A stretch of DNA of 64,000 nucleotides from Saprospiraceae bacterium (GTDB lineage Bacteria; Bacteroidota; Bacteroidia; Chitinophagales; Saprospiraceae). The position numbers and the translations under genes are program-made. Every line of letters begins with the position of its first letter. Positions within the stretch are counted from its first letter, which is position 1. Shown here in pieces: positions 1 through 63,778 of the stretch. The DNA lies in assembly GCA_029263015.1 (NCBI GenBank), contig JAJCYI010000163.1:1-64000 (forward strand). The letters run 5' to 3'. The notes beneath the pieces were generated by a model that did no database searches, was not told the origin of the DNA, and saw only the letters and a list, made by a program, of their open reading frames with translations.

Positions 1-137
1 GCCTACCGGCAGGCAGGTTTTTTCGTCAGACAAGGCAAAAAAAATTAGCATAGCCATAGCTACGGTCATTTTTTTTAACAAAGTATGGCGGAAAAAGAGG
101 CCGCCAAAAGTGTCGATTATTTGAGTTCACCTACTTA
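1..137. repeat. Palindromic dispersed element, family A copy 1 (left end rearranged or cut by the window edge)
   Basis: Core GGCAAAAAAAATTAGCATAGCCATAGCTACGGTCATTTTTTTTAACAAAGTATGGCGGAAAAAGAG and right end AAAGTGTCGATTATTTGAGTTCACCTACTTA align by eye with copies at 50357 and 60704. Confidence 0.75.
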
Positions 138-6139: not shown

Positions 6140-6200
6140 TCTGAGGAATGCGAGGTCCCATGTTTTGTTAGGTAAACCAACTTTTTCACCTATATTTTAA

Positions 6201-6360
6201 GGGGGCGGGAAATAAACAGCCTACCCGTTATGGCGAATTTATTTTTTCTTGTAAAAGTGTTTGAAAAACTAAGCGTAGCATAGTTACGGTTCTTTTTTCA
6301 AGTGCTTTTAGAAGGAAAAAGAATGGGTCAGAATGGGTAGGTTATTTGTTTCCTGTCCCC
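6201..6360. repeat. Palindromic dispersed element, family A copy 2
   Basis: Ends GGGGGCGGGAAATAAACAGCCTACCC / GGGTAGGTTATTTGTTTCCTGTCCCC pair 21/26 (the rest are G-T compatible); core AAGCGTAGCATAGTTACGG aligns with the other copies. Confidence 0.7.
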
Positions 6361-6380
6361 TAACATTAAAACAAAACAAC

Positions 6381-8775: not shown

Positions 8776-8984
8776 ACTGGACTTTTGACGCAGTTTTTTT
8801 CAAAGTAGCCAGGTAACGAATGTTCAATATGGCAGTGGATTATACATTGTTAAAATAATTATTTGGGGTTTTGGGAAAACACCCCGTTTTCCCAAAACAT
8901 CAAAAAATAATTTTCCAAATGTGTTTTCATCTGAAAATCAGACATATCTGTTTTTTCAATTTTAAATCACGTCAAAAGTCCAGT
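8776..8984. repeat. About 209-bp segment bounded by 15-bp perfect inverted repeats with an internal hairpin
   Basis: ACTGGACTTTTGACG (8776-8790) / CGTCAAAAGTCCAGT (8970-8984); internal GTTTTGGGAAAAC(8868-8880)-ACCCC-GTTTTCCCAAAAC(8886-8898). Confidence 0.7.
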
Positions 8985-14966: not shown

Positions 14967-17900
14967 ATGCACTACATGAAAACCCAATACTGGCAATTCC
15001 TATTCCCGCTACTCTGTTTCTTTTTCATTTCAAAAGTACTCCAAGCCCAATGCTCCATAACAGTGGATGCTGGTCAAGATCAAGTGGTCTGTAATCTTGG
15101 AGAAACTGTTTCCTTAAACGGCTCGGTAAGCGGTAATTTTTTAGATTTCAACTGGACTCCAATAGCTGGGCTGGACAATCCGCTAAACTTAACTCCCAAT
15201 GCAACCGTCACAGGAACAGCGACTTACACCCTCACGGCATACGCCGAAGACCCCAGCGCTCCGAACCTGGTCAACAATCCAGCATTCGAAGCTGGCAATG
15301 CGGGATTCACTTCTACCTACACTTATAACCCAGCCCCTATTACCCCAGGCACTTATTTTATTACGACTTCACCTTCGTTGGTGTTTTCCTCTTTCCCTCC
15401 CTGCGACGACCACACTTTTGGCAACGGCACAGGCAACATGATGCTGTGCAACGGGACTGGCAGTCCAGCTGATGTTTGGTGCCAGACGATTCCGGTGGCA
15501 CCAAACACCTATTATGTAATGAGTGGGTGGGTGACAGCCTCTCCTATTTCCCCGCCCATCATGCAGTTTTCAGTAAATGGCATATTGGTTGGGACGCCCT
15601 TTTCATCTAATGGCGTACCATGTGGTTGGGAGCAATTTTCAGCTATTTGGTTTTCAGGGGCAGCCGTTTCTGCTACCCTGTGCGTTACTGACCAGAACTC
15701 TTCTGGCAACGGCCTGTTCGGCGATGATTTTGCGATTGATGATATTTATTTTGCGGAAGCATGCTCCGTTTCTGATGAGGTAGAAGTCTCCATTGCCGAG
15801 GTGGACGCCGTGCTGCCGTTAACGACTATTCTTCCATGTAATTCCCTACCAAATGGAATAGTCCTTGACGGGAGTGCCTCAACGACTGGGCCAAACATTT
15901 CCTATCAATGGGACGGTGCAAATATCGTATCTGGAGCCAACACTCACAGTGCAACAGTCAATGAACCAGGCAGTTACACATTGACAGTAACCTATAACGA
16001 CGGCTTTACCACCTGCACCGATATGGCCTCCATAGAGGTGCTGGACGATCCCAATTTTGTGCTCGCATTTGCCGTAGCGCTAGAAGATATTGACTGCTTT
16101 AACACCATCGTCACGATAGACGGAACAGGCACTTTTGAAGGCCCGACCATTAATTATTCGTGGACGCCAATGGCTGGGATTGTTTCAGGTGAAAACACCT
16201 TGTTCCCAGAAGTCAATCAAGGCGGCACATATACCCTTTTCGTTACCAATTCCATCACGGGATGTACTGCCACCGCCGAGGTAACGGTAGAAGAAGATAC
16301 AGAAGTACCAACCGCTACCGCAGAAGGGTCAGGCGTTATTTCTTGTATGGATACGATCCAAATACTTGATGGAACGGGAAGTAGCGCGGGTAGCGATTTT
16401 GAGTATGAATGGACGGCACTCAATTTTGGAAACATCATTTTTGGGGCGAATACAATTGACACCTGCGTCGTGGATACGGCAGGGACTTACCAGTTGCTTG
16501 TCACCAATATTGTGAATGGCTGCACTGCTACCGACACCATCGTTGTTGAAGAAAATGTCAATTTGCCAGAAGCTTTTGCAGAGGTGCAATCCAACATTGA
16601 TTGCATCAATAATAGTTCATCCATAACTGGAAATGGCAGCAGCATTGGTGATAGCATTTTATATCTCTGGACCACCATCAACGGGAACATCGTGAGTGGG
16701 GACTCCACCCTCACGGCCATCGTTGATCAAGGTGGCGATTACGTCTTGACAGTCAGCGATACGCTCAGCGGTTGCTCTGCCATCGATACTATTTCTGTTC
16801 TGGAAAATTCAGCCCTGCCATTGGCCAACGCCATTTCACCGGAAGAACTGACCTGCCTTGCCAGCGCTGTGCAATTGGATGGCACTAGTTCCAGTACGGG
16901 TGTTGATTTCATGTATTTATGGACAACTGTAAATGGCAATATTTTGAATGGAGACACCAGCCTGATGCCAATGGTGGACGCTGCTGGCCATTACCTGCTC
17001 ACCGTCACCGATACCACCAATGGTTGTACTGCCACAGATACGGCATTTACCATCAGCAACCTCACGCCGCCAATTTCAGAAGCGGGAAATGGAGCGACAA
17101 TTGACTGTGCCAACAACCCTGAATTCTTGGATGGAAATGGTTCAAGTCTTGGGGCAGACTTCACTTATCTGTGGACAACCAATGATGGCAATATTTTGAG
17201 TGGTGAAACAAGTCTGATGCCCCAAGTGAGTGCTGCCGGAATTTATTTTCTAACAGTAACCAATACTCTAAATGGCTGCATATCAACAGATAGTGTCGTC
17301 GTCTCAGCAGAGGGGAATGCGCCAACGGCCACGGTCGAAGTGTTGGATATTTTAGATTGCAACACCGGCACTTTGACAATAGATGGGAGCGGATCGTCCA
17401 GTGGCCCTGATATTTCGCTTTCTTGGTTCACCCTTTCGGGAAATATAATTAATGGCGAAACGACCCTGACACCCGAAGTGGATGCTCCCGGCACCTATAC
17501 CCTGACCCTCATTGACCAGACCAACAACTGTTTGACAAGTGTGAGCATAACCGTTGAACAGGACACCATGACACCGACAGTGAATATTGCCCAGCCAGTG
17601 CTGCTGAATTGCTACCAAGCACTGGATACGCTAGACGCAACAGCTTCCAGCCAGGGTGCTAATTTCACACAAAATTGGACGACCCAAAACGGAAATATCG
17701 TCAACGGAGCAACGACCCTGCAACCTCTCATTGCCGCTTCTGGCATTTATGTTCTGACCATAAATAATTCAGATAATGGTTGCCAAGCCACACAGCAGAT
17801 AATGGTTTTAGAGGATTTTCTGGAGCCAGTTGCCGATGCTGGGGTTGCCCAATCGTTGACCTGCAACGATCCTACCGCCCAGTTGGACGGTACTGCTTCC

Positions 17901-20870
17901 AGTCAGGGAAATGAATTTGATTACCAATGGACTTCGGTCATCGGCAATTTTATTTCAGGGCAAAATACGCTCGAACCAGTCGTCGATATGGAAGGAACGT
18001 ATATTTTGGAAGTCACCAACCTGAACAACGGGTGTTCAGCAGTTGCTGGTGTTTCGGTAAATATATTCACAGATTTTCCGCAGGTAAACATTGAAGAACC
18101 AGATACGCTGGGCTGCATCAACAAAGAGCTGACACTGTCGGCAACTGCTTCCACAGGAACGGATTTTCAATATTTATGGACAACACTCAACGGCAATATT
18201 TTGGACGGGGGATCGGGCCTCTCCCCGATCATTGATGCGGCAGGACAGTACGAGTTGATCGTCACCGACACTTCCAATGGATGCGCCGTCGCCGATACCG
18301 TATTGGTTTTTGAAAATAGCGATGTGCCGACTGCTCAGGCTGGTGCTGCTTTCACCCTTTCTTGTGCGGTTACAGACGTCATATTGGATGGAACCGGCTC
18401 CAGCACTGGAACAAGCTTCTCCTATTTATGGTCGAGCCAAAACGGGAACATCGTTTCTGATGAAATGACCCTGACACCCACCATCAATGCTCCTGGAATA
18501 TACCTGCTCACTGTCACCGACAATAGCAACGGCTGCACCGCTACCGACATTGTCATCATTTCGCAAGATGCCAATGCCCCAACTGCTAATGCAGGGCAGC
18601 CAGACTCACTGACCTGCAATATCCCCGCCCTCGACCTCAATGGAACTGGCTCTTCAACGGGAGGTGATTTCTCTTATTTATGGACGACGCAAAATGGGAA
18701 CATCGTCTCCGGAGAAACGATTTTGACACCTCAAATTGACGCTCCCGGCACTTACTTGCTCACGGTTTTCAATAATACAAACAACTGTCAGACCATCTCC
18801 AGTGTACAAATTTTAGATGCAACAGAAGGGCCGGATATTTTTTTGTTGGATACGGTCAGCCTCACTTGCATGGACACAGTTTTGGTATTATCCGCTACTT
18901 CTTCTGTCAGTAATGCAAGCTATTTTTGGACGACTACAAATGGAAATATTATTGCTGGTGAAATGACTCCAACGCCCTTGATCGATGAACCAGGAGAATA
19001 CTTGCTCACGGTATCAGATCTGCTAACTGGTTGCACGTCGATTGCCTCATCTATGGTTATCGAGGACACGAACATGCCGTTCATCAATTTGGATTTCCCA
19101 ATGCCGTTGACCTGTGAAATGGATTTTGTAAACCTTGCAGGTTGGGGTTCAAGTTCAGGGCCTGACTTTAGTTATTTATGGACAACTCAAAACGGAAACA
19201 TCCTTGGCGATGATACCCAAATTTTTGCGACAGCAAACCAACCCGGCGATTATACTTTCGCTGTAACCGATGTAACAAATGGCTGCACAGCTTCCGCAGG
19301 ACTGACCGTTGTTGAAGACAAAGACCTGCCTGACGCTGTGGCAAATGCACCTTTTCAACTTGGTTGTAATCAAACCGAAGTTATGCTGGATGGCTCAGGT
19401 TCGAGTACCGGGCCAGAATTTTCTTACCTGTGGATTACGAACGGAAATATTGTCAGTGGTGAAAACACTCTCTCCCCCATCGTGGATGCCTCTGGCGATT
19501 ATTTATTAATTGTCACCAACACGGAAAACAGTTGCTCCCAAACCGACACTGTCACCGTCACTGAAAATGGTGATGCACCTGAAATCATTCTTTTGCAACC
19601 CGAACTGCTAACCTGTTTGACAACAGAAATCATCATTGATGCAAGTGGCTCTGTGTCAGGTTTGGATTATTTGAACGAATGGACGACAACCAGCGGGAAC
19701 ATTATTTCCGGCGCCACGACCCTCCTGCCGACAGTAGATGCCCCAGGCGAATACACGCTCACCATCACCAATACCCAAAACGGCTGCACCGCTACTTCAA
19801 CCACTACGGTTTTTGGAAACACAACACCTCCTGTGGCTACCGCAGGCATTGATCTGGTGCTCGACTGTGACAATATGGAAATCGAAATTCAGGGTAATTT
19901 AACTGCTCCTCAGATGGCAGTCCCAAATTGGACTTTCGTTCTTGAACCAGGCTATTCTGGAAATCCTTTTGTTGCGAATCAACTGACACTCAATCCTATC
20001 ATCAACTTGCCGGGCATTTATACTTTGATGGTTACAGATCCGATCAACGGCTGCACGGTGGAAGATGAAATGACCGTGACTTCCAGTTTGTTGACTGGTT
20101 TTTCTTTTGAAATGACTGAGCCTGATTGCCTCACCTCAGCCGGAACTATTACGTTTACGGGCCAGCAGGGAGGAACGCCCCCCTATCTATATTCGGTGGA
20201 TGGACTTGTTTTTTCATCTCAAACCGTGTTCGATAACTTGCCTCCTGGCGCCTACTCCCTCACCGTGCAGGATGATGCTGGTTGTGAAATTTCAGAAGAT
20301 GCAGTGATTCCTCTTTTTCAACCATTCGAGGTCTCCCTCGATCCAGAAATTACTGTTTCACTCGGAGAGGAAATCCATCTTGTCCCATTGCTTACGCTAC
20401 CCATTAATGAAATTTCAAACTTCATTTGGTCGCCAGCTGAAGGGTTAAGCTGCACCGATTGCCTCGACCCTTTTTTACTGCCGACTCAAAACAATATTTA
20501 CCAGATCGAAGTCATCGATTCCAATGGTTGCTCGGCCATTGCGAGTGTGTCTATTATGGTAAAAGAACCGAACATTAATGTTTTCGTCCCAAATGTCTTT
20601 TCCCCAAACGGTGATGGCATCAACGACCTCTTCTTCATTTTTGCGAACGAAAAACTGGTTGTCATTGTCAGCCAATTCCACATCTTCTCCCGTTGGGGGG
20701 AGACGGTATTTGAAAATTTCGATTTCCCACCCAATGACGTTGAACATGGCTGGGATGGAACGCATCGAAGCAAATCACTTGACAGCGGTGTGTTCACCTG
20801 GTTCGCCGAAATTGTATTGGTGAATGGGGAAACGAAGATGTTTCAGGGAGATGTGACTATTATAAAATAG
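14967..20870 (+). CDS. Giant PKD/Ig-like repeat surface protein with T9SS type-B (CHU_C) C-terminal domain
   Basis: About 17 repeats of the form 'C..LDGTGSSTG..FSYLWTTQNGNIVSGE..L.P.IDAPGTYLLTVT...NGC'; C-terminus NVFVPNVFSPNGDGINDLF..IFSRWGETVFEN..GWDGT..GVFTW. Confidence 0.95.
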   Translation: MHYMKTQYWQFLFPLLCFFFISKVLQAQCSITVDAGQDQVVCNLGETVSLNGSVSGNFLDFNWTPIAGLDNPLNLTPNATVTGTATYTLTAYAEDPSAPNLVNNPAFEAGNAGFTSTYTYNPAPITPGTYFITTSPSLVFSSFPPCDDHTFGNGTGNMMLCNGTGSPADVWCQTIPVAPNTYYVMSGWVTASPISPPIMQFSVNGILVGTPFSSNGVPCGWEQFSAIWFSGAAVSATLCVTDQNSSGNGLFGDDFAIDDIYFAEACSVSDEVEVSIAEVDAVLPLTTILPCNSLPNGIVLDGSASTTGPNISYQWDGANIVSGANTHSATVNEPGSYTLTVTYNDGFTTCTDMASIEVLDDPNFVLAFAVALEDIDCFNTIVTIDGTGTFEGPTINYSWTPMAGIVSGENTLFPEVNQGGTYTLFVTNSITGCTATAEVTVEEDTEVPTATAEGSGVISCMDTIQILDGTGSSAGSDFEYEWTALNFGNIIFGANTIDTCVVDTAGTYQLLVTNIVNGCTATDTIVVEENVNLPEAFAEVQSNIDCINNSSSITGNGSSIGDSILYLWTTINGNIVSGDSTLTAIVDQGGDYVLTVSDTLSGCSAIDTISVLENSALPLANAISPEELTCLASAVQLDGTSSSTGVDFMYLWTTVNGNILNGDTSLMPMVDAAGHYLLTVTDTTNGCTATDTAFTISNLTPPISEAGNGATIDCANNPEFLDGNGSSLGADFTYLWTTNDGNILSGETSLMPQVSAAGIYFLTVTNTLNGCISTDSVVVSAEGNAPTATVEVLDILDCNTGTLTIDGSGSSSGPDISLSWFTLSGNIINGETTLTPEVDAPGTYTLTLIDQTNNCLTSVSITVEQDTMTPTVNIAQPVLLNCYQALDTLDATASSQGANFTQNWTTQNGNIVNGATTLQPLIAASGIYVLTINNSDNGCQATQQIMVLEDFLEPVADAGVAQSLTCNDPTAQLDGTASSQGNEFDYQWTSVIGNFISGQNTLEPVVDMEGTYILEVTNLNNGCSAVAGVSVNIFTDFPQVNIEEPDTLGCINKELTLSATASTGTDFQYLWTTLNGNILDGGSGLSPIIDAAGQYELIVTDTSNGCAVADTVLVFENSDVPTAQAGAAFTLSCAVTDVILDGTGSSTGTSFSYLWSSQNGNIVSDEMTLTPTINAPGIYLLTVTDNSNGCTATDIVIISQDANAPTANAGQPDSLTCNIPALDLNGTGSSTGGDFSYLWTTQNGNIVSGETILTPQIDAPGTYLLTVFNNTNNCQTISSVQILDATEGPDIFLLDTVSLTCMDTVLVLSATSSVSNASYFWTTTNGNIIAGEMTPTPLIDEPGEYLLTVSDLLTGCTSIASSMVIEDTNMPFINLDFPMPLTCEMDFVNLAGWGSSSGPDFSYLWTTQNGNILGDDTQIFATANQPGDYTFAVTDVTNGCTASAGLTVVEDKDLPDAVANAPFQLGCNQTEVMLDGSGSSTGPEFSYLWITNGNIVSGENTLSPIVDASGDYLLIVTNTENSCSQTDTVTVTENGDAPEIILLQPELLTCLTTEIIIDASGSVSGLDYLNEWTTTSGNIISGATTLLPTVDAPGEYTLTITNTQNGCTATSTTTVFGNTTPPVATAGIDLVLDCDNMEIEIQGNLTAPQMAVPNWTFVLEPGYSGNPFVANQLTLNPIINLPGIYTLMVTDPINGCTVEDEMTVTSSLLTGFSFEMTEPDCLTSAGTITFTGQQGGTPPYLYSVDGLVFSSQTVFDNLPPGAYSLTVQDDAGCEISEDAVIPLFQPFEVSLDPEITVSLGEEIHLVPLLTLPINEISNFIWSPAEGLSCTDCLDPFLLPTQNNIYQIEVIDSNGCSAIASVSIMVKEPNINVFVPNVFSPNGDGINDLFFIFANEKLVVIVSQFHIFSRWGETVFENFDFPPNDVEHGWDGTHRSKSLDSGVFTWFAEIVLVNGETKMFQGDVTIIK

Positions 20871-20880
20871 GGAGGCGTGC

Positions 20881-20929
20881 CGATGCTAAAAGGTGACACC
20901 TTTCCGAAAGGTGTCACCTTTTAGCATCG
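20881..20929. repeat. Perfect 23-bp inverted repeat, nested palindrome AAAGGTGACACCTTT
   Basis: CGATGCTAAAAGGTGACACCTTT-CCG-AAAGGTGTCACCTTTTAGCATCG. Confidence 0.9.
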
Positions 20930-20939
20930 TTCCCCATAA

Positions 20940-20972
20940 ATTTAGGGCGCAACTTTAAGTTGCACCCTAAAT
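20940..20972. repeat. 33-bp near-perfect palindrome around GCAACTTTAAGTTGC
   Basis: ATTTAGGGCGCAACTTTAAGTTGCACCCTAAAT; related copy at 63746-63778. Confidence 0.8.
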
Positions 20973-23113: not shown

Positions 23114-23150
23114 GGAAATGATTTTTTAAACAAAATAGATGAACAACAAA

Positions 23151-23240
23151 TGTATTGCGAATCCCCAGATTCGCTCTGAACCACTACTATGTCTTGTGCG
23201 AATCTGGGGATTCGCTATACATCTAGGGATTCGCGATACA
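23151..23240. repeat. Nested inverted repeat plus third half-site between hutI and the PH-domain gene
   Basis: TGTATTGCGAATCCCCAGATTCGC / GCGAATCTGGGGATTCGCTATACA (23/24) plus AGGGATTCGCGATACA; the arm itself contains GCGAATC..GATTCGC. Confidence 0.9.
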
Positions 23241-31631: not shown

Positions 31632-31746
31632 GCGGCTCTTTGACAAATCCTGTGAAAATGTTCAAATTAAATTGAAAGAAGAAATTCAAAAGGTGACACC
31701 TTTGACCCGCTCCGAAAATCAAAATCACGGGATTAGTCAAAGAACC
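31632..31746. repeat. Palindromic dispersed element, family B copy 1
   Basis: Ends GGCTCTTTGACAAATCCTGTGA / TCACGGGATTAGTCAAAGAACC pair 19/22; central AAAGGTGACACCTTT; homologous in inverted orientation to 50553-50683. Confidence 0.8.
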
Positions 31747-31751
31747 AAAAA

Positions 31752-31803: not shown

Positions 31804-34800
31804 CTATTGCTCAATAACAATTCTCTTCACAACTGACTGCTGGCCCTCAATTTTAATATCCAAAAGATATAGGCCATCAATGATTCCGTTCATGTCAAAT
31901 TGGTGGACTTTGCTACTTTCAGTTATTTCATAAACCGCTACTTTCCTTCCCATAATATCCATCAATTCTACTGTACCTTCCTCGACTATTCCTGAAAAAA
32001 GAATATTCAGAACAGAGGAAACAGGGTTTGGATACACTTCAACGACACTGCTTTCAGTTGGCAGATCACAGCCAGCACAGTTGCCTGGATTGACAAGTGC
32101 CTGGTCAACAGGTTCGGTGAAAGGACTTGGACAGCTATTATTGATGTCTGTGACGCTGTTGCAACCAGAAGCGTTGAAGAAGATGGTAACGCTACCACTT
32201 ACCCCACCATTTACCGGGTCTACCAGGTCCTTAACTGCACAGCAATCTGTCAAAACAAAATTGTAGTACATGAGGAAACTTCCACCTACTGTGCCCAAGG
32301 TCTGCAAACCGTTCAAAGAAGTCAGAGAAGAATTGAAATAAATAAACAATGTTCCTCCCACTTCCGCGAGATTGTCCAGACCCGACATACTGGTCAGACC
32401 TGTAAACTGAATAGTCAGGCTGCCAGTCACTTCAACAATATTAGCGAGTGAGGAAAGATTGGTTATTCCAGCACCTTGAATGGTGACAGTGCCGTCAATG
32501 ATAGCGTAACACGCTGGCCATTCATCCAAATCTGCTTGTGTGGCGAAAGTAACATTTCCAGTAAACGTTTCTCCAGAAAGGCCTTCATCAACATTGCCAT
32601 CGCAATTATCGTCGATGCCGTTGCAGACTTCCGTTTCGCCAGGATTGACATCATCATCATCATCATCACAATCGGTATCGATCGCTGTCAGTTCCGCTGC
32701 GACTTTATGACCTGTTGGGCGTTCGCATTGGACTACAAGTGTGAGAGGACTTTCACCATAACCGTCATCATCCGTATCGGGATACCATTCCTGTCCTGGT
32801 CTTTCCAATGGATCATTATCGTCACAATCTGTTTCAGGACCAACTAGGTCACCTTCCAATTTATAACCAGTAGGCTGGGTACAATTCTCCTCTGTCGTTC
32901 CATCAGAATAACCATCGTCATCTATATCCTTGAACCAGATTGGGATTACACCAGTTGCTGGATCGACGACTACTGTAAATGTTACTTCACAGATAGCAGC
33001 AATATTGAAAACTTTCAGTACCACATTATAAGTCCCAGGTGTCAGTGGACCAAAAAATCCAGTAAACTGGAAGTTCGTACCACCGTCAATGGAATAACCC
33101 AATTGGCCGCCGCCTGCCATCCCATCTATATCAATCGTGCCGTTGGCCTCACCTTCACAGGTCTCGTGTGTAACCTCAAAGGTGTAAGTGATAAACTCCT
33201 CTATTGTAACCTTGGCAGTACAGGTATTGGTATTGCCGCAGACATCCTCGCCTGTTAAGGTCACGGTGTTTTCACCTTCATCTAAACAAGTAAATAAATT
33301 TGGTGAAACTGAAACAGGTGTAACCCCGGAACAGTTATCAGTTGAATTGGTAGCATCAAATACTTGTGATGGCGTGATCGTGAGGTCTCCAGTAGCGGTC
33401 AGGGCTACAGAAATATCCTGGCATACTACTGTAGGAGGAGTAGTGTCGTCCACCGTAATGATCTGGTCACAGGTATGCATGTTCCCACAAATATCTTCTG
33501 CCTTCCACGTCCTTGTGATGGAATAAGAATAATCCGTACACGAGCCATCCATTGTCTGGGTGCTCACATCTGTTGAACTAATAGCTGGAGCCCCATCACA
33601 ATTATCCGTTGCGGTAGCCTCCCCAGTATCCATTGGATCAGTGCTCGCATCACATTCCACCGTAACATCGGCAGGGCAAGTAACAACAGGATTCGTAAGA
33701 TCTCCCACGGTAATCACCTGATCGCAAGTATGCATGTTTCCACAAACATCCTCGGCCTTCCACGTTCTGGTGATGGTATAAGAATAATCCGTACACGAGC
33801 CATCCATCGTCTGGGTGCTCACATCTGTCGAACTAATAGCTGGATTCCCATCGCAATTATCTGTTGCGGTAGCCTCCCCAGTATCCATTGGATCTGTGCT
33901 CGCATCGCATTCCACCGTAACATCTGCTGGACAGCTCACAACTGGATTGGTTTCATCAACCACGGTTATAATCTGGTCGCAAGGAATCATGTTTCCACAA
34001 TTATCTTCCGCTTTCCAAGTCCGAGTTATTGTGTAACTGTGATCGTTGCAGCTACCATCGCTTGTCTGTGTGCTCACATCTGTTGATGAAATAGTCGGAC
34101 TGTCATCACAATTGTCCAATGCCGTGGCTTCGCCTGTATCAGCAGGATCAGTACTCGCATCACATTCAACAGTGACATCAGTTGGGCACGTTATTTCTGG
34201 CGCTTTGGTATCCACTACCGTAATGACCTGGTCACAAGTCGTGCTCATGTTGCCACATACATCAGTCGCTTTCCAGGTGCGGACAATCATGTAATTCTGA
34301 TCGGTACACAGGCCAGTATTTGTTTGGTTGCTATCATCATCGAAACTAGGCACTGGGTTAGGGTCACAATTATCCATTGTCGTAGGATAACCTGTATTAA
34401 TAGGCCCTGGGCTCCTGTCACATTCAATCGTGATAGGAGGAGGACAAACCACTGTTGGAATAGTGTTGTCAACAACAGTAATGGTCTGGTCACAGGTAGT
34501 GCTCATGTTGCCACAGATATCGGTGGCATGCCAGGTCCTCGTAATGGTATAACTGAAACTAGTACAACCTGCACCTGGTCCACCTGCATCACTGGAATCG
34601 AACATCGGATTAGGATCACAATTATCCACCGCTGTTGGTGTGCCAGTATTGATAGGATCAATGCTCTCCTCACAACTTATAGTTTTACCCGGTGGGCAGG
34701 TTATGGTTGGAGGAGTGGTATCGGTGAAATGGATGAGCTGCATCTGTGGAGCGCTCTGGTTTCCACAGCCGTCATGGGCTGTCCAGGTCCGCTCAACCAC

Positions 34801-37800
34801 CCATAGTCCGGTCGGGCAATCGTTAAGGAATGGCCCGGTCAGCACATCTTGGAAAGCCATTTTCGGCAACGGATCGCAATTATCAGTTACAGGAATTGGA
34901 ACCGTCTTATGCACCGCCTCGACGAGACTGGCAAAGAGGTTACCCATTCCTGGTATTGGATTGTCGAACAATCCAACACAGAAACCTGGAGGGAACAGAT
35001 GTACGTATTCCGCCTGTGGCGGCACCCTATCTATTTCATCAAGTATAACAAGTGGCTGCTGATTGTAAAGGAAGAAAGGAGGAAACGGCATTTCCAACTC
35101 GAAAAAGACATCGAAATAACTACATGCCTTGGTATTATCACCAGGCACCTGGCCAACGATATGGCCGGTAGAAGGAGGCAGTGGTGCGCCAGGGCCTACG
35201 CCTGCACCAGCACCGACACGGAGTGTAAAACCTCCACCCGTCAGTTCCATCTGAATTATTTCCGTAGGAATCACGTCATTTTGGCCATTCAGCACAGCCG
35301 GACATGGTGCCGTCGGCAAAGCCAAATCCTGCGCAGCACCACGGTTCACCAATACAGGCCCAGAAAGCATAAGTTCTTGTTGTCCAGGTAAAGTGCAATC
35401 CAGTACGCCGCCAAGGTTGATACTCACTTCACCTGTGGACTGTATGACATCCTGCCCTGCGGGCAGGTCAAGGAACCAATCGGGCACTGGAGGCCCAAAC
35501 TGATCCTCTACCGACAGGCAAGAAGGATCGATGCGTGGATCTTGTGGTACGCCTGGAGGTACAGGGTTCAAATTAAAATTATCCGGCCATTCGAGGGTCG
35601 TATTGCCAGGTGCTGTGAACGTTGGTGCTTCTGTATCCTTAAAAGGAATCGTCTGTACACAAGTCATCATCAAACCGCAGGCATCGGTTGCTTTCCAGGT
35701 ACGGGTTACGATCCACAGGCCAGTCGCACAGTCGTTCGGGAATGGCCCAGTCAGTACATCCTGATAGGTTACTGATGGCGTTCCACAGTTGTCAGTAGCC
35801 GTAGGATTACCTGTTACGCTCGGATCGATGCTTGGATCCTGAGGGGTGTCTGGCCCTACTGGGCTAAAGTTGAAACCAGCAGGCCATTCAATCGGTGCCG
35901 GATCGGGCGGACAGGTTATACCTGGAGGGGTTGTATCTGAAAAAGTAAAGGTTTGTACACATGGGGAAGAGGTGTTGCCACAGGGGTCCATATTCGTAAA
36001 GGTCCGCTGTACAATCCAAAGGTTTGGACAATTGGCCGGAGTCGGCCCAACAAGCACATCTTGGAAACTAAATGCAACTGTACCACAATTATCCACACCA
36101 CTCGATTCACCAAAGGTACTTGTAGGAATGCTCGGGTCCTGTGGCGTGTTTGGCGGCACAGGGTTGATATTGAACCCAGTTGGCCACTCGATCACTACAG
36201 GGTTCACTGGGCAGGTGATGCTTGGTCCGGCGTTATCCTCAACTGTAATAGTCTGGTCGCAAGTCGTGCTCATATTATTACAGGCATCGGTCGCTTTCCA
36301 AGTACGGGTAATCACATAAGCAGCGTCGGTGCAACTGCCGTCCATCGTCTGTGTGCTGACATCTGACATGGAGATCATTGGATCCGGGTCACAATTATCG
36401 GTAGCGGTCGGCTCAATCAATTCTTGCCTGGCTTGAATAGGAGCGGTTGCTTGAGTAGAGCCAGACAACCCATCCAAAACACTTCCAGGTGCACCTACAA
36501 AATCTATCTGGTAAGAAATATCAAAAAAACTGTCCACATTAAAGTCACCACTTGGAAGCTGGGTCAAGGTAGTGTGTCCAGGACTCGGCAGTCCAAATCC
36601 CAACCCAGCTGTAATTTGTAATTGATCAAAATCCGGGTCGCCAAATATGGCCCCCTGCAATTGAAACATTTCGGTATCAAAATCCTGTACCGGATCGCCT
36701 GGGGTGCGAGGGCCTGAATGCATTTCGCCAGATACCGGCACCATAATCATCCTGCTAAACCCAGCCAAAGAACCAGTACCGGTCATATTCATTTCCAATA
36801 CAGCATCAAATATATGAACCTCTCCTCCAAGGCCTCCACCTGGCGCTGATGAGATAAGGCTCATTGAAACCATTTCTGTCTCTATCAATATCTCAGTCCC
36901 TGGAGGTAGCCCATCAATAATCAGAAATGGATCAAATGGTTGAGTTGCATAACCACAAAGTGGCGGCAGATCGATGGTACCAGTTCCATTATCTGGTTGT
37001 ACACAGCCCGTTGCTCCCAGAATTGGGTCGTCACATGCTACTGTCACATCTGGCGGGCAGGTGATTCCTGGAATAGTATTGTCAACCACCGTTATCGTTT
37101 GCACTTGATTGGGTGACGCAAGACCGCTACAGTCAACCAATGACCAGGTCCGTCTGATGGTACCTGTACCATTGCATCCAGTCAGACTAGGAACGTCAGT
37201 AAAAGTCGCATCCAAACCAGTACAGCAATCATGCATTTCGTCGGTTACATCGCCCGTATTTGCAGGAGAAGTATCATCTTCACAACTAATGGTTACATCA
37301 GGAGGTCTGGTAAAGGTCGCTGCTGGCAGGCTCGTTACCATCAGGTCCGCAGTAGCAGCAGGGGCAGGTATTTCACCCTGAACACCATCTGCCGACACCT
37401 CACTAGTGGTATTGGTATAGGTACCGGTACTTGCATCGCAAGGAATCAATATTTTAATACTGAACGAACAACTTGCTCCTGGTTCCAAATTACCATTCTG
37501 GAAAGAAAACATACCCATTCCATCTGCCGCTACAAAAGCGCCTTCTCCACAAGCACTTACGTCCGCTACGATTGGTGTGTTGACAGTGGTACCGGGAAGC
37601 ATCGCACCCAGGTCATCCATAAAGTCAATATCCTGAATGGCATTGACAGCGTCCAGGTTTTCTAAAGTAAAAGTGAGCATGGCCTCGCCTGCGGCAACAG
37701 CAGGCCCATCAAATGATTTACTCAAGTTCAAAGTCCTTACCTGTAAGTCATCAGTGGCAGTACCACCTTCAACAGGTACACCCATTAATTCCCCAGTTAC

Positions 37801-40710
37801 CTCGCCCGTCGTATTGGTAAATGTGTTCCCCGCTACCGTAGCAGGTAATTGCAAAGTCACGGTAAACGTGCAGGATGCCCCGCCAGCAAGTGTGCCACCG
37901 CTCAGGGTAAGGGTCGAACCACCGGTCAAAGAAGAAGCCCCTCCACAAGGCATTGCTGGTAAAACAGAAGTTACCAAGCCTGACAAAGTAGCATCGAGGT
38001 CATCTATGAAAGTGATATTGTCAATTTGCCTGGCAGGATCAAGATTTGTTATCGTAAATTCCATATCTACCGTGCCACCTGCCAATACTGGGTCATCGGT
38101 GAATTCTTTGGTAATGTCAAGCAGATTTGTTTCAACGATCAGGTTATCAGTGGCAGGAGGGAGACTTACAAAGCTACTACCAATTTGAACGAATGGATTT
38201 GAAGTCGAATTAATATAGGTATCAGAGGCGGCGCCGGGTGGGATCAGCAATTCAATATCAATGGTACAGCTATTCCCCGGGGTTATAGGAGTAGCAGTAC
38301 CGAGACCATTGAAACTAAGAAAGGTCGTTCCACCCATAGTACCACCACAGGTATTTGTGGCGGGAGGTAAGGTAGCGGTCGATCCAGGCAGGAAAGCTAA
38401 ATTATCTTGAAAAAGGAGAAGTGTAGCATCTTCAGCCCCCATTGTATTATCCAAGGTAAAACGCAAGATGACTGTTTCGCCCGGCAAAGCTGGATCTGGG
38501 GCATAGATAAGTTCTTTGGTGAAAAACACGTTTGTGACCACCAGATCGACTGCTGCTGCACCGCCCGTAACGGTTTGCCCACTGGAGGTGGCCGTCACAG
38601 TGCTGGTGTTATTGGTATGGGTGCCGAGTGTGGCCCCTGCCGGGATGTCCACCGTCACGGTGATGGTACACGAACCACCAGGGGTCAATGTCCCGCCCAT
38701 TAAAGAAATGAAGCTTGAGCCAGCGGCGGCGGTGACTGTACCACTACAATCAGTCACCAGATTATTAGGAGTTGCAACTACAGTCCCTGTTAAAAAAGCA
38801 TCCAAATCATCGGAAAAGGCAAGATCCGTTGCGTCAGTAGTTGATAGTGCATCCAGGCTCAACGTAAAGGTCAAATCAACTTGGTCGCCCGGAGCTACCT
38901 GGACAAGGGAAAATTCCTTGCGGATGCTCGGCGCAGTCAATATCTCAACATCATCGGTTGCCGGAGAACCTGTTACAGCTTCCCCATTTACCATTCCTGT
39001 AACTTCAGAGGTGGTATTATTGTAATTACCAGGAGGCGCTCCTACTAGGACATCAAGTGTAATACTAAACGTACAGCTACTACCTATAGGAATACTTCCC
39101 CCAGTGAGGGTTAGCCTTGCCGGGATTGTAGCGTCCCCCGGAGGATTGAAAAGAGGGGAGAAGGTAAATATTGACCCCATGCCACAGTCGTCATTGGCTG
39201 GAAGAACCGATGCTGTTTGGAATATCTGATCAAACATATCCGTGAAACTTATATCAGTCAGTTCATGAGTCAAGCTGGTATTAGTGATCGTAAATTCCAA
39301 TACGGTTGTCCCGCCGGGTGTGGCAGGATCAGTCAGGAAAGTTTTGGTAATAACCGGATGTGGAGACACAACAAGATCGGCCTCAGCGGTGTTGCCCGTT
39401 ACCGTACTTCCATCTACCGTTCCACTCACCATATTGGTCACATTTGGATAAGTGCCAGATGCAGTACCAGCTGGAACATCGCAAGTAACCGTAAAAGTGC
39501 AAGTTCCACCATTGGATGGCACCGTTCCTCCAGTCAATGTCAATACGCCGCCAACAAATGTCAACATAGAACCTGTGCCGCAAGGATCGGTAGGCAGCGC
39601 ACCAGCAGGAGCCAGACCCGTCAAAACCGCATCCAGGTCATCTGTAAAAGTGACATCAGTCGCTTCAAAATCCCGGTCATAGTTGGTTATGTTAAATTCC
39701 AGGTCCACTGTTCCGCCAGGAGCAACAGGGTCATTGGTAAAATTCTTGATGATGTGGATATCTGATCTGGTCACTTCCAAGGTGGCACTTGCTTTTCCAG
39801 CAGTAATTAGTGGATTAGATTGTACCGTCAGCTCAGAAGTTACGTTTTCTAGTTGCCCAGTCCCTGTTGATAAAACGTCTATTGTTACGGTACAACTTCC
39901 GCCACCAAGGATAACTTCAAAACCAGGGAATACAAATCCAACTGCCTGATAGAAGAACTGGGTACTACCAGGTGTCGCGGAAACGGTTTCTCCTGAAGGT
40001 GCCATACATGTTGAGGAAAAATTAGCAGGGCTGGCAATCTCCAGGCCATCCGGCAAATTGTCGGTAAAAGCCAGGAAGGTCACTGCCGCCGCGTTTGCCA
40101 TATTATCAATGGTGAAGGTCAGGGTAGCTGTTTTACCTAAATCTATTGAGGACGGAGAAAAGGTTTTTGTAAATCCAGGCCGGTCTGTTACGACTATTAA
40201 ATCAGCCGTACCAGAAGTTGGAGGATCTCCCATAAAATCGGAGGTCAACGTAACGGATGGGTTTGTATTCGTACCCACATTAGAGCTGGTTACGTTCACC
40301 GTCACGGTACACGAACTTCCTGCCCCTACCCTACCATTGGAAAAGGTAATGGTTGTGCCACTTGCGGGAGCGGTCATCATGGCTTGTCCTGCCGAACAAT
40401 TCGTAGATGTTGCTGGGGCATCGGCAATGGTGATTATGCCAGCAGGCAGCATACTGGGCAGGGTACTGGTAAAGGCCAGGTTCTCAAGTGGGGTTGGATT
40501 TCCCGTATTATCAATGGTAAAAACCAAGGCTGCCGTACTGCCCGGACCGATAGTGCCGGGCGTGAATGCTTGCGAAAAACTAGGCTGTGCCATGCCATTT
40601 ACAGCAAATAGAAAAAGTGCCAGCAAAGGCAGCGCTATTTTTTTATAGATCGTAGAATTTCCCATTTGGATTATCTTTTTGATTTCTTTTTTTGGTGTAG
40701 AACTTTTCAT
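31804..40710 (-). CDS. Giant surface adhesin: DUF11-like repeats, HYR/Ig-like repeats, MopE-type Asp/Cys motif, receptor-L-like domain, T9SS type-A sorting domain
   Basis: DUF11-like repeats (FTKTFSPSSIDLGKTATLTFTIDN..), 85-aa HYR-like repeats (VTCPADVTVECDASTDPMDTGEATATDNCD), DTDCDDDDDDVNPGETEVCNGIDDNCDGNVDE, L-domain-like region, C-terminus VEVYPNPVSSVLNILF..VKRIVIEQ. Confidence 0.95.
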   Translation of the reverse strand: MKSSTPKKEIKKIIQMGNSTIYKKIALPLLALFLFAVNGMAQPSFSQAFTPGTIGPGSTAALVFTIDNTGNPTPLENLAFTSTLPSMLPAGIITIADAPATSTNCSAGQAMMTAPASGTTITFSNGRVGAGSSCTVTVNVTSSNVGTNTNPSVTLTSDFMGDPPTSGTADLIVVTDRPGFTKTFSPSSIDLGKTATLTFTIDNMANAAAVTFLAFTDNLPDGLEIASPANFSSTCMAPSGETVSATPGSTQFFYQAVGFVFPGFEVILGGGSCTVTIDVLSTGTGQLENVTSELTVQSNPLITAGKASATLEVTRSDIHIIKNFTNDPVAPGGTVDLEFNITNYDRDFEATDVTFTDDLDAVLTGLAPAGALPTDPCGTGSMLTFVGGVLTLTGGTVPSNGGTCTFTVTCDVPAGTASGTYPNVTNMVSGTVDGSTVTGNTAEADLVVSPHPVITKTFLTDPATPGGTTVLEFTITNTSLTHELTDISFTDMFDQIFQTASVLPANDDCGMGSIFTFSPLFNPPGDATIPARLTLTGGSIPIGSSCTFSITLDVLVGAPPGNYNNTTSEVTGMVNGEAVTGSPATDDVEILTAPSIRKEFSLVQVAPGDQVDLTFTLSLDALSTTDATDLAFSDDLDAFLTGTVVATPNNLVTDCSGTVTAAAGSSFISLMGGTLTPGGSCTITVTVDIPAGATLGTHTNNTSTVTATSSGQTVTGGAAAVDLVVTNVFFTKELIYAPDPALPGETVILRFTLDNTMGAEDATLLLFQDNLAFLPGSTATLPPATNTCGGTMGGTTFLSFNGLGTATPITPGNSCTIDIELLIPPGAASDTYINSTSNPFVQIGSSFVSLPPATDNLIVETNLLDITKEFTDDPVLAGGTVDMEFTITNLDPARQIDNITFIDDLDATLSGLVTSVLPAMPCGGASSLTGGSTLTLSGGTLAGGASCTFTVTLQLPATVAGNTFTNTTGEVTGELMGVPVEGGTATDDLQVRTLNLSKSFDGPAVAAGEAMLTFTLENLDAVNAIQDIDFMDDLGAMLPGTTVNTPIVADVSACGEGAFVAADGMGMFSFQNGNLEPGASCSFSIKILIPCDASTGTYTNTTSEVSADGVQGEIPAPAATADLMVTSLPAATFTRPPDVTISCEDDTSPANTGDVTDEMHDCCTGLDATFTDVPSLTGCNGTGTIRRTWSLVDCSGLASPNQVQTITVVDNTIPGITCPPDVTVACDDPILGATGCVQPDNGTGTIDLPPLCGYATQPFDPFLIIDGLPPGTEILIETEMVSMSLISSAPGGGLGGEVHIFDAVLEMNMTGTGSLAGFSRMIMVPVSGEMHSGPRTPGDPVQDFDTEMFQLQGAIFGDPDFDQLQITAGLGFGLPSPGHTTLTQLPSGDFNVDSFFDISYQIDFVGAPGSVLDGLSGSTQATAPIQARQELIEPTATDNCDPDPMISMSDVSTQTMDGSCTDAAYVITRTWKATDACNNMSTTCDQTITVEDNAGPSITCPVNPVVIEWPTGFNINPVPPNTPQDPSIPTSTFGESSGVDNCGTVAFSFQDVLVGPTPANCPNLWIVQRTFTNMDPCGNTSSPCVQTFTFSDTTPPGITCPPDPAPIEWPAGFNFSPVGPDTPQDPSIDPSVTGNPTATDNCGTPSVTYQDVLTGPFPNDCATGLWIVTRTWKATDACGLMMTCVQTIPFKDTEAPTFTAPGNTTLEWPDNFNLNPVPPGVPQDPRIDPSCLSVEDQFGPPVPDWFLDLPAGQDVIQSTGEVSINLGGVLDCTLPGQQELMLSGPVLVNRGAAQDLALPTAPCPAVLNGQNDVIPTEIIQMELTGGGFTLRVGAGAGVGPGAPLPPSTGHIVGQVPGDNTKACSYFDVFFELEMPFPPFFLYNQQPLVILDEIDRVPPQAEYVHLFPPGFCVGLFDNPIPGMGNLFASLVEAVHKTVPIPVTDNCDPLPKMAFQDVLTGPFLNDCPTGLWVVERTWTAHDGCGNQSAPQMQLIHFTDTTPPTITCPPGKTISCEESIDPINTGTPTAVDNCDPNPMFDSSDAGGPGAGCTSFSYTITRTWHATDICGNMSTTCDQTITVVDNTIPTVVCPPPITIECDRSPGPINTGYPTTMDNCDPNPVPSFDDDSNQTNTGLCTDQNYMIVRTWKATDVCGNMSTTCDQVITVVDTKAPEITCPTDVTVECDASTDPADTGEATALDNCDDSPTISSTDVSTQTSDGSCNDHSYTITRTWKAEDNCGNMIPCDQIITVVDETNPVVSCPADVTVECDASTDPMDTGEATATDNCDGNPAISSTDVSTQTMDGSCTDYSYTITRTWKAEDVCGNMHTCDQVITVGDLTNPVVTCPADVTVECDASTDPMDTGEATATDNCDGAPAISSTDVSTQTMDGSCTDYSYSITRTWKAEDICGNMHTCDQIITVDDTTPPTVVCQDISVALTATGDLTITPSQVFDATNSTDNCSGVTPVSVSPNLFTCLDEGENTVTLTGEDVCGNTNTCTAKVTIEEFITYTFEVTHETCEGEANGTIDIDGMAGGGQLGYSIDGGTNFQFTGFFGPLTPGTYNVVLKVFNIAAICEVTFTVVVDPATGVIPIWFKDIDDDGYSDGTTEENCTQPTGYKLEGDLVGPETDCDDNDPLERPGQEWYPDTDDDGYGESPLTLVVQCERPTGHKVAAELTAIDTDCDDDDDDVNPGETEVCNGIDDNCDGNVDEGLSGETFTGNVTFATQADLDEWPACYAIIDGTVTIQGAGITNLSSLANIVEVTGSLTIQFTGLTSMSGLDNLAEVGGTLFIYFNSSLTSLNGLQTLGTVGGSFLMYYNFVLTDCCAVKDLVDPVNGGVSGSVTIFFNASGCNSVTDINNSCPSPFTEPVDQALVNPGNCAGCDLPTESSVVEVYPNPVSSVLNILFSGIVEEGTVELMDIMGRKVAVYEITESSKVHQFDMNGIIDGLYLLDIKIEGQQSVVKRIVIEQ
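33455..33964 (-). repeat. Recent in-frame 255-bp (85-aa) tandem duplication within the adhesin gene
   Basis: GTAATGATCTGGTCACAGGTATGCATG (33455) and GTAATCACCTGATCGCAAGTATGCATG (33710), near-identical downstream sequence, 255-bp period. Confidence 0.85.
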
Positions 40711-50356: not shown

Positions 50357-50517
50357 TAAGTAGGTGAGTGTATATAATCGACACTTTGAACGAGGCTATT
50401 TTTTCGCTAATCGAGGCAAAAAATATTTGAATAGCCAAGTTATGGAAATATTTTTTAACGAGGAGTATCGGAAAAGGAGTCCGTTCAAAGTGTCGATTAT
50501 ATATGCTCACCTACTTA
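50357..50517. repeat. Palindromic dispersed element, family A copy 3
   Basis: 35-bp terminal inverted repeats at 33/35 (AAGTAGGTGAGTGTATATAATCGACACTTTGAACG); core GGCAAAAAATATTTGAATAGCCAAGTTATGGAAATATTTTTTAAC. Confidence 0.9.
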
Positions 50518-50552
50518 ATTGGAATAGAAACTTTAAAACAGCAAAGGATTTT

Positions 50553-50683
50553 GGTTATTTGACTAATCCTGTGATTTTGATTTTCGGAGCTGGTCAAAGG
50601 TGACACCTTTTAGAAAGGTGTCACCTTTTGGCTTCCTTATTTCAATTTGATTTGAAGATTTTAACGAGATTTGTCAATGAGCC
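50553..50683. repeat. Palindromic dispersed element, family B copy 2
   Basis: GGTTATTTGACTAATCCTGTGATTTTGATTTTCGGAGCTGGTCAAAGGTG..; homologous to the reverse complement of 31632-31746; central palindrome duplicated. Confidence 0.85.
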
Positions 50684-60703: not shown

Positions 60704-60874
60704 CAATTAAGTAGTTGAGTTTAAATAAGTTCCGAATTTTAGCGAATTGATTTTTTTGTATAGCAAGGCAAAAAAAGAGAGCATAGCCATAGCTACGTGA
60801 GCTTTTTTTAACACAGCTATACGGAAAAAGTAGGCGATAAAAGCGGAAATTATTTAGGCTCAACTACTTAATTG
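60704..60874. repeat. Palindromic dispersed element, family A copy 4
   Basis: 31-bp terminal inverted repeats at 28/31 (CAATTAAGTAGTTGAGTTTAAATAAGTTCCG); core GGCAAAAAAAGAGAGCATAGCCATAGCTACGTGAGCTTTTTTTAAC. Confidence 0.9.
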
Positions 60875-63745: not shown

Positions 63746-63778
63746 ATTGGGGCACAGCTTTAAGTTGCACCTTAAACT
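63746..63778. repeat. Diverged copy of the GCAACTTTAAGTTGC palindrome
   Basis: ATTGGGGCACAGCTTTAAGTTGCACCTTAAACT aligned to 20940-20972. Confidence 0.6.

Follow-up and report, generated by a model that had tools for sequence, protein, structure and literature searches.

Four hairpin elements in the window

The window, the 64-kb stretch of Saprospiraceae DNA analysed here, starts at base 1 of contig C163 and contains all four of the palindromes named in the original prediction. The features, all on the + strand, are as follows.

1..137, + strand: copy 1, 3' part only; covariance-model match at 7-106, 86.3 bits
about 6198..6362, + strand: copy 2, a divergent member, TTAAGGGGGCGGG...CCTGTCCCCTAA; covariance-model match at 6231-6330, E 4.6e-6
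50357..50517, + strand: copy 3, complete element; hairpin TA-AGTAGGTGAG...CTCACCTACT-TA; fold z -12.8
50357..50392, + strand: left outer arm and terminal inverted repeat of copy 3, 94% complementary to 50482-50517 over 36 nt (pair I5)
50388..50486, + strand: core of copy 3; match to covariance model R1 over its full length, 76.7 bits, this core being a member of the training set
50482..50517, + strand: right outer arm and terminal inverted repeat of copy 3, the partner arm in pair I5
60704..60874, + strand: copy 4, complete element; covariance-model match at 60740-60839, 86.8 bits

The limits first given for copy 3 and the right end of copy 1 at position 137 were correct, but those of copy 2 moved to about 6198-6362, and copy 4, whose terminal inverted repeat (TIR) reaches 60704-60874, ends at 60708 and 60870 when the TA is included. 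The TIR of copy 4, TA-AGTAGTTGAGTTTAAATA, resembles the IS630 end AGTAGTCAAGTTTAATTA. Copy 1 has no left end because the contig starts inside its left arm, which is an effect of assembly and not of biology; contig ends coincide with many of the element copies in this genome.

Folding and a shuffle test were carried out on copies 2, 3 and 4, and all three folds were far more stable than the shuffles, lying 38-50 kcal/mol below the mean of dinucleotide-shuffled sequences. None of 200 shuffles was as stable as copy 3, copy 4 (z -10.8) or copy 2 (z -10.7). The centre, expected to be near-invariant, is so in copies 1 and 4, which carry AGCATAGCCATAGCTACGG, but not in copies 2 and 3, where it reads GCGTAGC-ATA-GTTACGG and GAATAGC-CAA-GTTATGG, respectively, with pairing still kept. 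Copy 2 retains the tip but lacks the GGC/AAC bulge motif, GGCAAAAA and the AAC bulge both being absent, and the segment is paired there. Copy 2 was nonetheless recovered, at the E value listed above, by a covariance model trained without it.

The left arm of copy 1 contains an inserted palindrome, which reads CCTGCCTACCGGCAGGCAGG in full-length sister copies. A 20-bp palindrome, CCTGCC(TG/TA)CCGGCAGGCAGG, occupies the same left-arm region in two element subfamilies (copy 1 at 1-17; L023, L025, L029, L167, L168 and L172-L181), as if it were a mobile unit itself.

Mobility and partner insertion sequences

The original prediction depended on further copies and on covariation, and both were found: a covariance-model search puts the number of copies in this genome at 150 or more, and the covariation, described below, is very strong. 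BLAST with copy 4 alone marks about 40 places in the 6.95 Mb genome, and no match among plasmids and phages. When the copies of this genome were aligned, they showed sharp ends (TAAGTAGTCGAG...CTCGACTACTTA) and unrelated flanks. The elements are short (about 160-185 bp), non-coding and bounded by TIRs, as miniature inverted-repeat transposable elements (MITEs) are. Their ends show TA, which is itself palindromic, so that a duplication cannot be told from the element end. A clearer case is Aquimarina sp. RZ0, with dozens of near-identical loci, where an identical TNA trinucleotide stands on both sides in 44 of the 46 complete copies and the length is 160 bp in 45 of them; this is a signature of transposition. 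Copy number is patchy among relatives, from 0 to more than 60, and some members of a genus have no match.

TIRs are shared with an insertion sequence (IS) of the same genome in three cases. At four places in our genome, found by a search with the end sequence, a near-identical TIR (TA-AGTAGTCAAGTTTAATTATTCGG) runs into an open reading frame (ORF) starting MVQIHSLSEEEILDL; the fragment begins 40-odd bp inside the TIR, and the contigs end within the ORF. Its 78 amino acids represent the N-terminal region of a transposase of the IS630 type (NCBIfam IS630, E 1.4e-6, a score below the model cut-off) and also match the Pfam helix-turn-helix families HTH_23 and HTH_29. In G180, a GC-rich complete genome, the core-bearing elements carry the ends CTAGTGCTGCRTCAA, which match those of an IS630 that scores 129 bits with NCBIfam (cut-off 100). 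The G203 ends, TNA-GAGCCTGTTTAA, match an IS5 with a score of 140 bits against a cut-off of 110. IS630 ends with a TA target, as in RUP, are thus not common to all members, since the G203 ends are those of an IS5 and the Aquimarina copies duplicate TNA. We looked for an autonomous partner of the Aquimarina TIR and found none. A multi-copy IS630 of G104 (8 copies) could be linked to none of the four types of MITE end in that genome, and a search with joined flanks gave no empty site within the fetched loci.

Taken together, the transposon nature of the family is well supported, and the MITE identity proposed at the outset is established by the IS-shared TIRs and the target-site duplications. 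Movement would be in trans by an IS transposase, as we infer from the known behaviour of IS630 and IS5.

At L147 (G000:C219:51000-51900), a copy of the hairpin element in this genome has a member of a second MITE family (TIR CTGGACTTTTGACG, 9-bp duplication TATATGGAA) inserted in it, and a palindrome related to this second family is found in the window at 8833-8933. Core-bearing elements also occur as tandem pairs about 160 bp apart (L127 1053-1315, L045 5247-5506, L037 25-298), which suggests that a new copy inserted at the target site bordering an older one.

Distribution across phyla and variety of ends

A pattern search of GTDB starting from the centre (GGCAAAAA, GCATAG, GCTACG) found at least 101 loci, in Aquimarina, Arenibacter, Saprospiraceae, Flammeovirgaceae, Chlorobiota, Prolixibacteraceae and two gammaproteobacterial genomes. 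The outer ends of these loci are entirely different, among them TACGATTT, TACCAATTT, CTAGTGTC, TTAGGATCTG and GACTTTATTC; G104 alone has four end types. With a refined covariance model (E<=0.001, ten candidates scored per genome), matches were obtained in 63 of 399 Pseudomonadota genomes, about one in six. Inspection of 29 Pseudomonadota loci showed that nearly all are palindromes with CAAGGC...AACGCnG-like motifs, again with different ends. Matches in 7 of 399 Bacillota genomes, several copies each in some, have the form ACAAGGC...AACGCAGT.

Across phyla and irrespective of the ends, the hairpin mostly spans 159-169 bp; larger values mainly reflect local alignment entering A/T-rich flanks, and smaller ones degraded or shorter copies. 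Pattern matches in Opitutus and Emergencia (L035 and L081) were set aside as chance, having no palindrome and zero model matches in either genome. L343, which lies inside a coding region, seems to be a spurious match of the covariance model.

A conserved core within variable stems

The inner part of the element, about 100 bp, follows one plan: A/T helix, variable stem, AGGC, variable stem, GCATAGC-n-GCTACG, variable stem, AACGnAG, variable stem, A/T helix. Among 43 family representatives, AGGC, GCATAGC and GCTACG are 90-93% identical; for roughly half of the sequences in the alignment this figure is inflated, as they were found with a search pattern containing these motifs. AACGnAG, which was outside the pattern, is 78% identical, and AAGGC is also retained at the loci that the covariance model found in Pseudomonadota and Bacillota. 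The stems and outer arms of the same representatives are 28-34% identical, near the 28.5% expected from composition.

Although they diverge in this way, the stems stay paired. In 71 distinct sequences, aligned by fitting to the covariance model, which itself favours pairing, 91.9% of cells are paired against 70.2% when shuffled and 45-55% when slid; double changes fill 392 cells against 125 when shuffled and affect 23 of the 27 pairs. A structure-free MAFFT alignment (A2) still shows double changes in 17 of 27 pairs.

Rfam gave no match in the 64-kb window at gathering thresholds, and at E<=5 seven element-bearing loci gave only weak overlaps with eukaryotic microRNA and snoRNA models, far below gathering scores. 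We consider the core a strong candidate for a structured motif, of RNA or DNA, that is new and has no Rfam entry. A kink-turn at the bulge was rejected, as the expected G.A steps beside the C-stem are missing.

Evidence that one strand is kept foldable

Isolated mismatches within the hairpin were counted under a symmetric scoring scheme in 72 dissimilar families. In the outer arms, G.T outnumbers A.C by 48 to 15 (p 4e-5), and in the middle zone by 38 to 1; A.G and G.G likewise exceed C.T and C.C. Polarity of this kind does not arise from a DNA duplex or from a neutral palindrome, and therefore the strand carrying GGCAAAAA is kept foldable. These results, the covariation and the bias of G.T over A.C, support selection on the core as a folded single strand, in agreement with the original proposal that a folded DNA or RNA is selected. 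RNA would be the simplest carrier of a strand-specific fold.

The same counts can be read in terms of DNA, in which G.T, G.A and G.G are likewise the least disruptive mismatches. The + strand might fold as single-stranded DNA, either as a cruciform or when replication, repair or DNA uptake exposes it, and a host or transposon protein might recognise the bulge and tip as a structural signal. That G.A and G.G join G.T in the polarity fits the ranking of mismatches by their stability in DNA, and a hairpin held to about 160-169 bp in most families, whichever the phylum, would fit a geometric constraint on DNA. We nevertheless regard this explanation as unlikely: the commonest mismatch in the outer arms is G.T, as RNA predicts, the boxes of integron attC sites are absent from the ends, and hand counts show no bias in replication direction (18 to 19 in G199, 10 to 4 in G104). 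An integron attC identity as such was also rejected, as the GTTRRRY/RYYYAAC boxes are missing and the ends, judged by eye, are IS TIRs (AGTAGTC, TACGATTT, GTGCTGC, GAGCCTG).

Orientation relative to the flanking genes is unbiased among the scored copies, 129 with neighbours on both sides against 3 in an ORF. This counts against a read-through RNA function, which would probably produce a bias. It also speaks against a structured RNA or 3' UTR element, such as a terminator or mRNA stabiliser, domesticated by the host to serve many genes. The very stable fold and the position of nearly all scored copies outside ORFs (3 inside against 129) would suit such a role, but a terminal U run is absent, some members of a genus lack any match, and the dozens of near-identical Aquimarina loci represent recent bursts, so that we consider this role very improbable.

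Template switching can yield double changes in quasi-palindromes. The family might consist of ordinary MITEs without function, descended from one ancestor, spread by horizontal transfer and kept complementary in their arms by template switching in replication. Transposon behaviour, patchy copy number and the lack of an orientation preference agree with such an origin, and template switching could account for the double changes. Not predicted by it, however, are unpaired bulge and tip motifs at about 0.8-0.9 identity beside stems at background, a mismatch polarity on one strand, or a single core on both IS630 and IS5 ends, and we think it improbable, if less so than domestication by the host.

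A probable modular element with exchangeable ends

The explanation that we favour, and hold to be probably right, is a lineage of modular hairpin MITEs with exchangeable ends, in which the core is selected as a folded strand, probably an RNA, which may engage a widespread factor. Each element, some 160-170 bp long, folds end to end as a single hairpin. Its outer 15-30 bp are the TIRs of an IS element, on which the DDE transposase of that IS would act in trans to cut and paste the element, of the IS630 family here (TA duplicated) and of the IS5 type elsewhere (TNA duplicated). The inner ~100 bp comprise an A/T helix, a variable stem, the bulge motif CAAGGC / AAC(G/A)nAG, a further variable stem and the GCATAGC-n3-4-GCTACG tip, and this core occurs with many different IS ends. 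One strand of defined polarity would be selected in its folded form. If that strand is RNA, the element would be transcribed into a stable hairpin, whose bulge motif may bind a widespread cellular factor and so aid the persistence or tolerance of the element. That the core has a function at all is inferred from conservation, covariation and polarity.

A broader proposal, which we put forward tentatively and judge slightly less probable than its contrary, is that a hitherto unreported structured motif found across phyla (CAAGGC - stem - GCATAGC/GCTACG tip - AAC(G/A)nAG) persisted by switching between unrelated transposon ends. It would be a modular hyperparasite of insertion sequences, with an RNA or single-stranded DNA fold that interacts with a conserved factor of three phyla, the Bacteroidota, Pseudomonadota and Bacillota.

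The interpretation originally given for the window is supported overall; the most surprising part, a core common to several phyla and transposase families, lies beyond its view. MITEs are usually viewed as decayed IS elements, each with one parent and a meaningless interior. Here the situation is reversed, with a conserved interior and variable ends across three phyla and two transposase families, and it seems that an old conserved fold has spread on many different transposons. This would imply that, in a bacterial repeat that is very widespread, the core has an overlooked role, whether for the element or for the cell. How a non-autonomous element passes from one transposase to another likewise becomes a question that can be tested.

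Comparison with known elements

One close parallel is RUP of Streptococcus pneumoniae, a MITE of 107 bp that IS630-Spn1 is believed to mobilise (PMC2229807). Like RUP, the present elements are short, non-coding hairpins with IS630-shared TIRs, a TA target and many intergenic copies; unlike RUP, which was reported for one species, they form a hairpin of ~160 bp with a core in three phyla and ends of at least two transposase families. In size, single long hairpin and intergenic position they resemble YPAL/RU-2 of Yersinia (about 168 bp) and ERIC/RU-1 (127 bp), enterobacterial elements for which TA ends and TA duplication are reported (PMC2759123, PMC2229807). The printed RU-2 sequence, examined by eye, lacks the GCATAGC tip, and a cross-phylum core is unreported for either element.

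QMITE2 of Coxiella (150-190 bp; PMC5896051) is also a hairpin MITE of similar size at gene 3' ends and in intergenic regions, but is set apart, by its description, by target duplications of 7-11 bp and an internal GTAG REP. Nezha of cyanobacteria and Chunjie of Geobacter, compared by description, are likewise intergenic MITEs with TIRs and direct repeats (PMC3733652, PMC10969869). REP/REPIN sequences are high-copy intergenic palindromes too, yet they are GTAG-tagged units of 20-40 bp moved by Y1 tyrosine transposases (RAYTs) (PMC3733652). REP hairpins carry this tag at the 5' end and make no target duplication. The REP-like nature once suggested for our elements was rejected on their size of 160 bp, their DDE-type duplications (TNA) and their ends, families with TACGATTT or TACCAATTT ends being without GTAG. 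In the literature covered, mostly outside subscription journals, no MITE interior common to different transposases or phyla is described, nor is this core, and a key-term search of a 2024 MITE review gave no mention of one.

Other repeats in the window

Next to copy 3, at 50549-50683, lies a repeat of 117-135 bp that has an inverted counterpart at 31634-31750, the two being 86-94% alike. This repeat contains the palindrome AAAGGTGACACCTTT, present also at 20881-20929. Two small palindrome families were seen besides, TTAGGGCGCAACTTTAAGTTGCACCCTAAA at 20942-20971 and 63747-63776, and GCGAATCCCCAGATTCGC at 23150-23222 and also in L144. Two very long ORFs, at 14967-20870 (1967 aa) and 31804-40710 (2968 aa), have internal repeats of about 84 codons, and their products are probably secreted or surface proteins.
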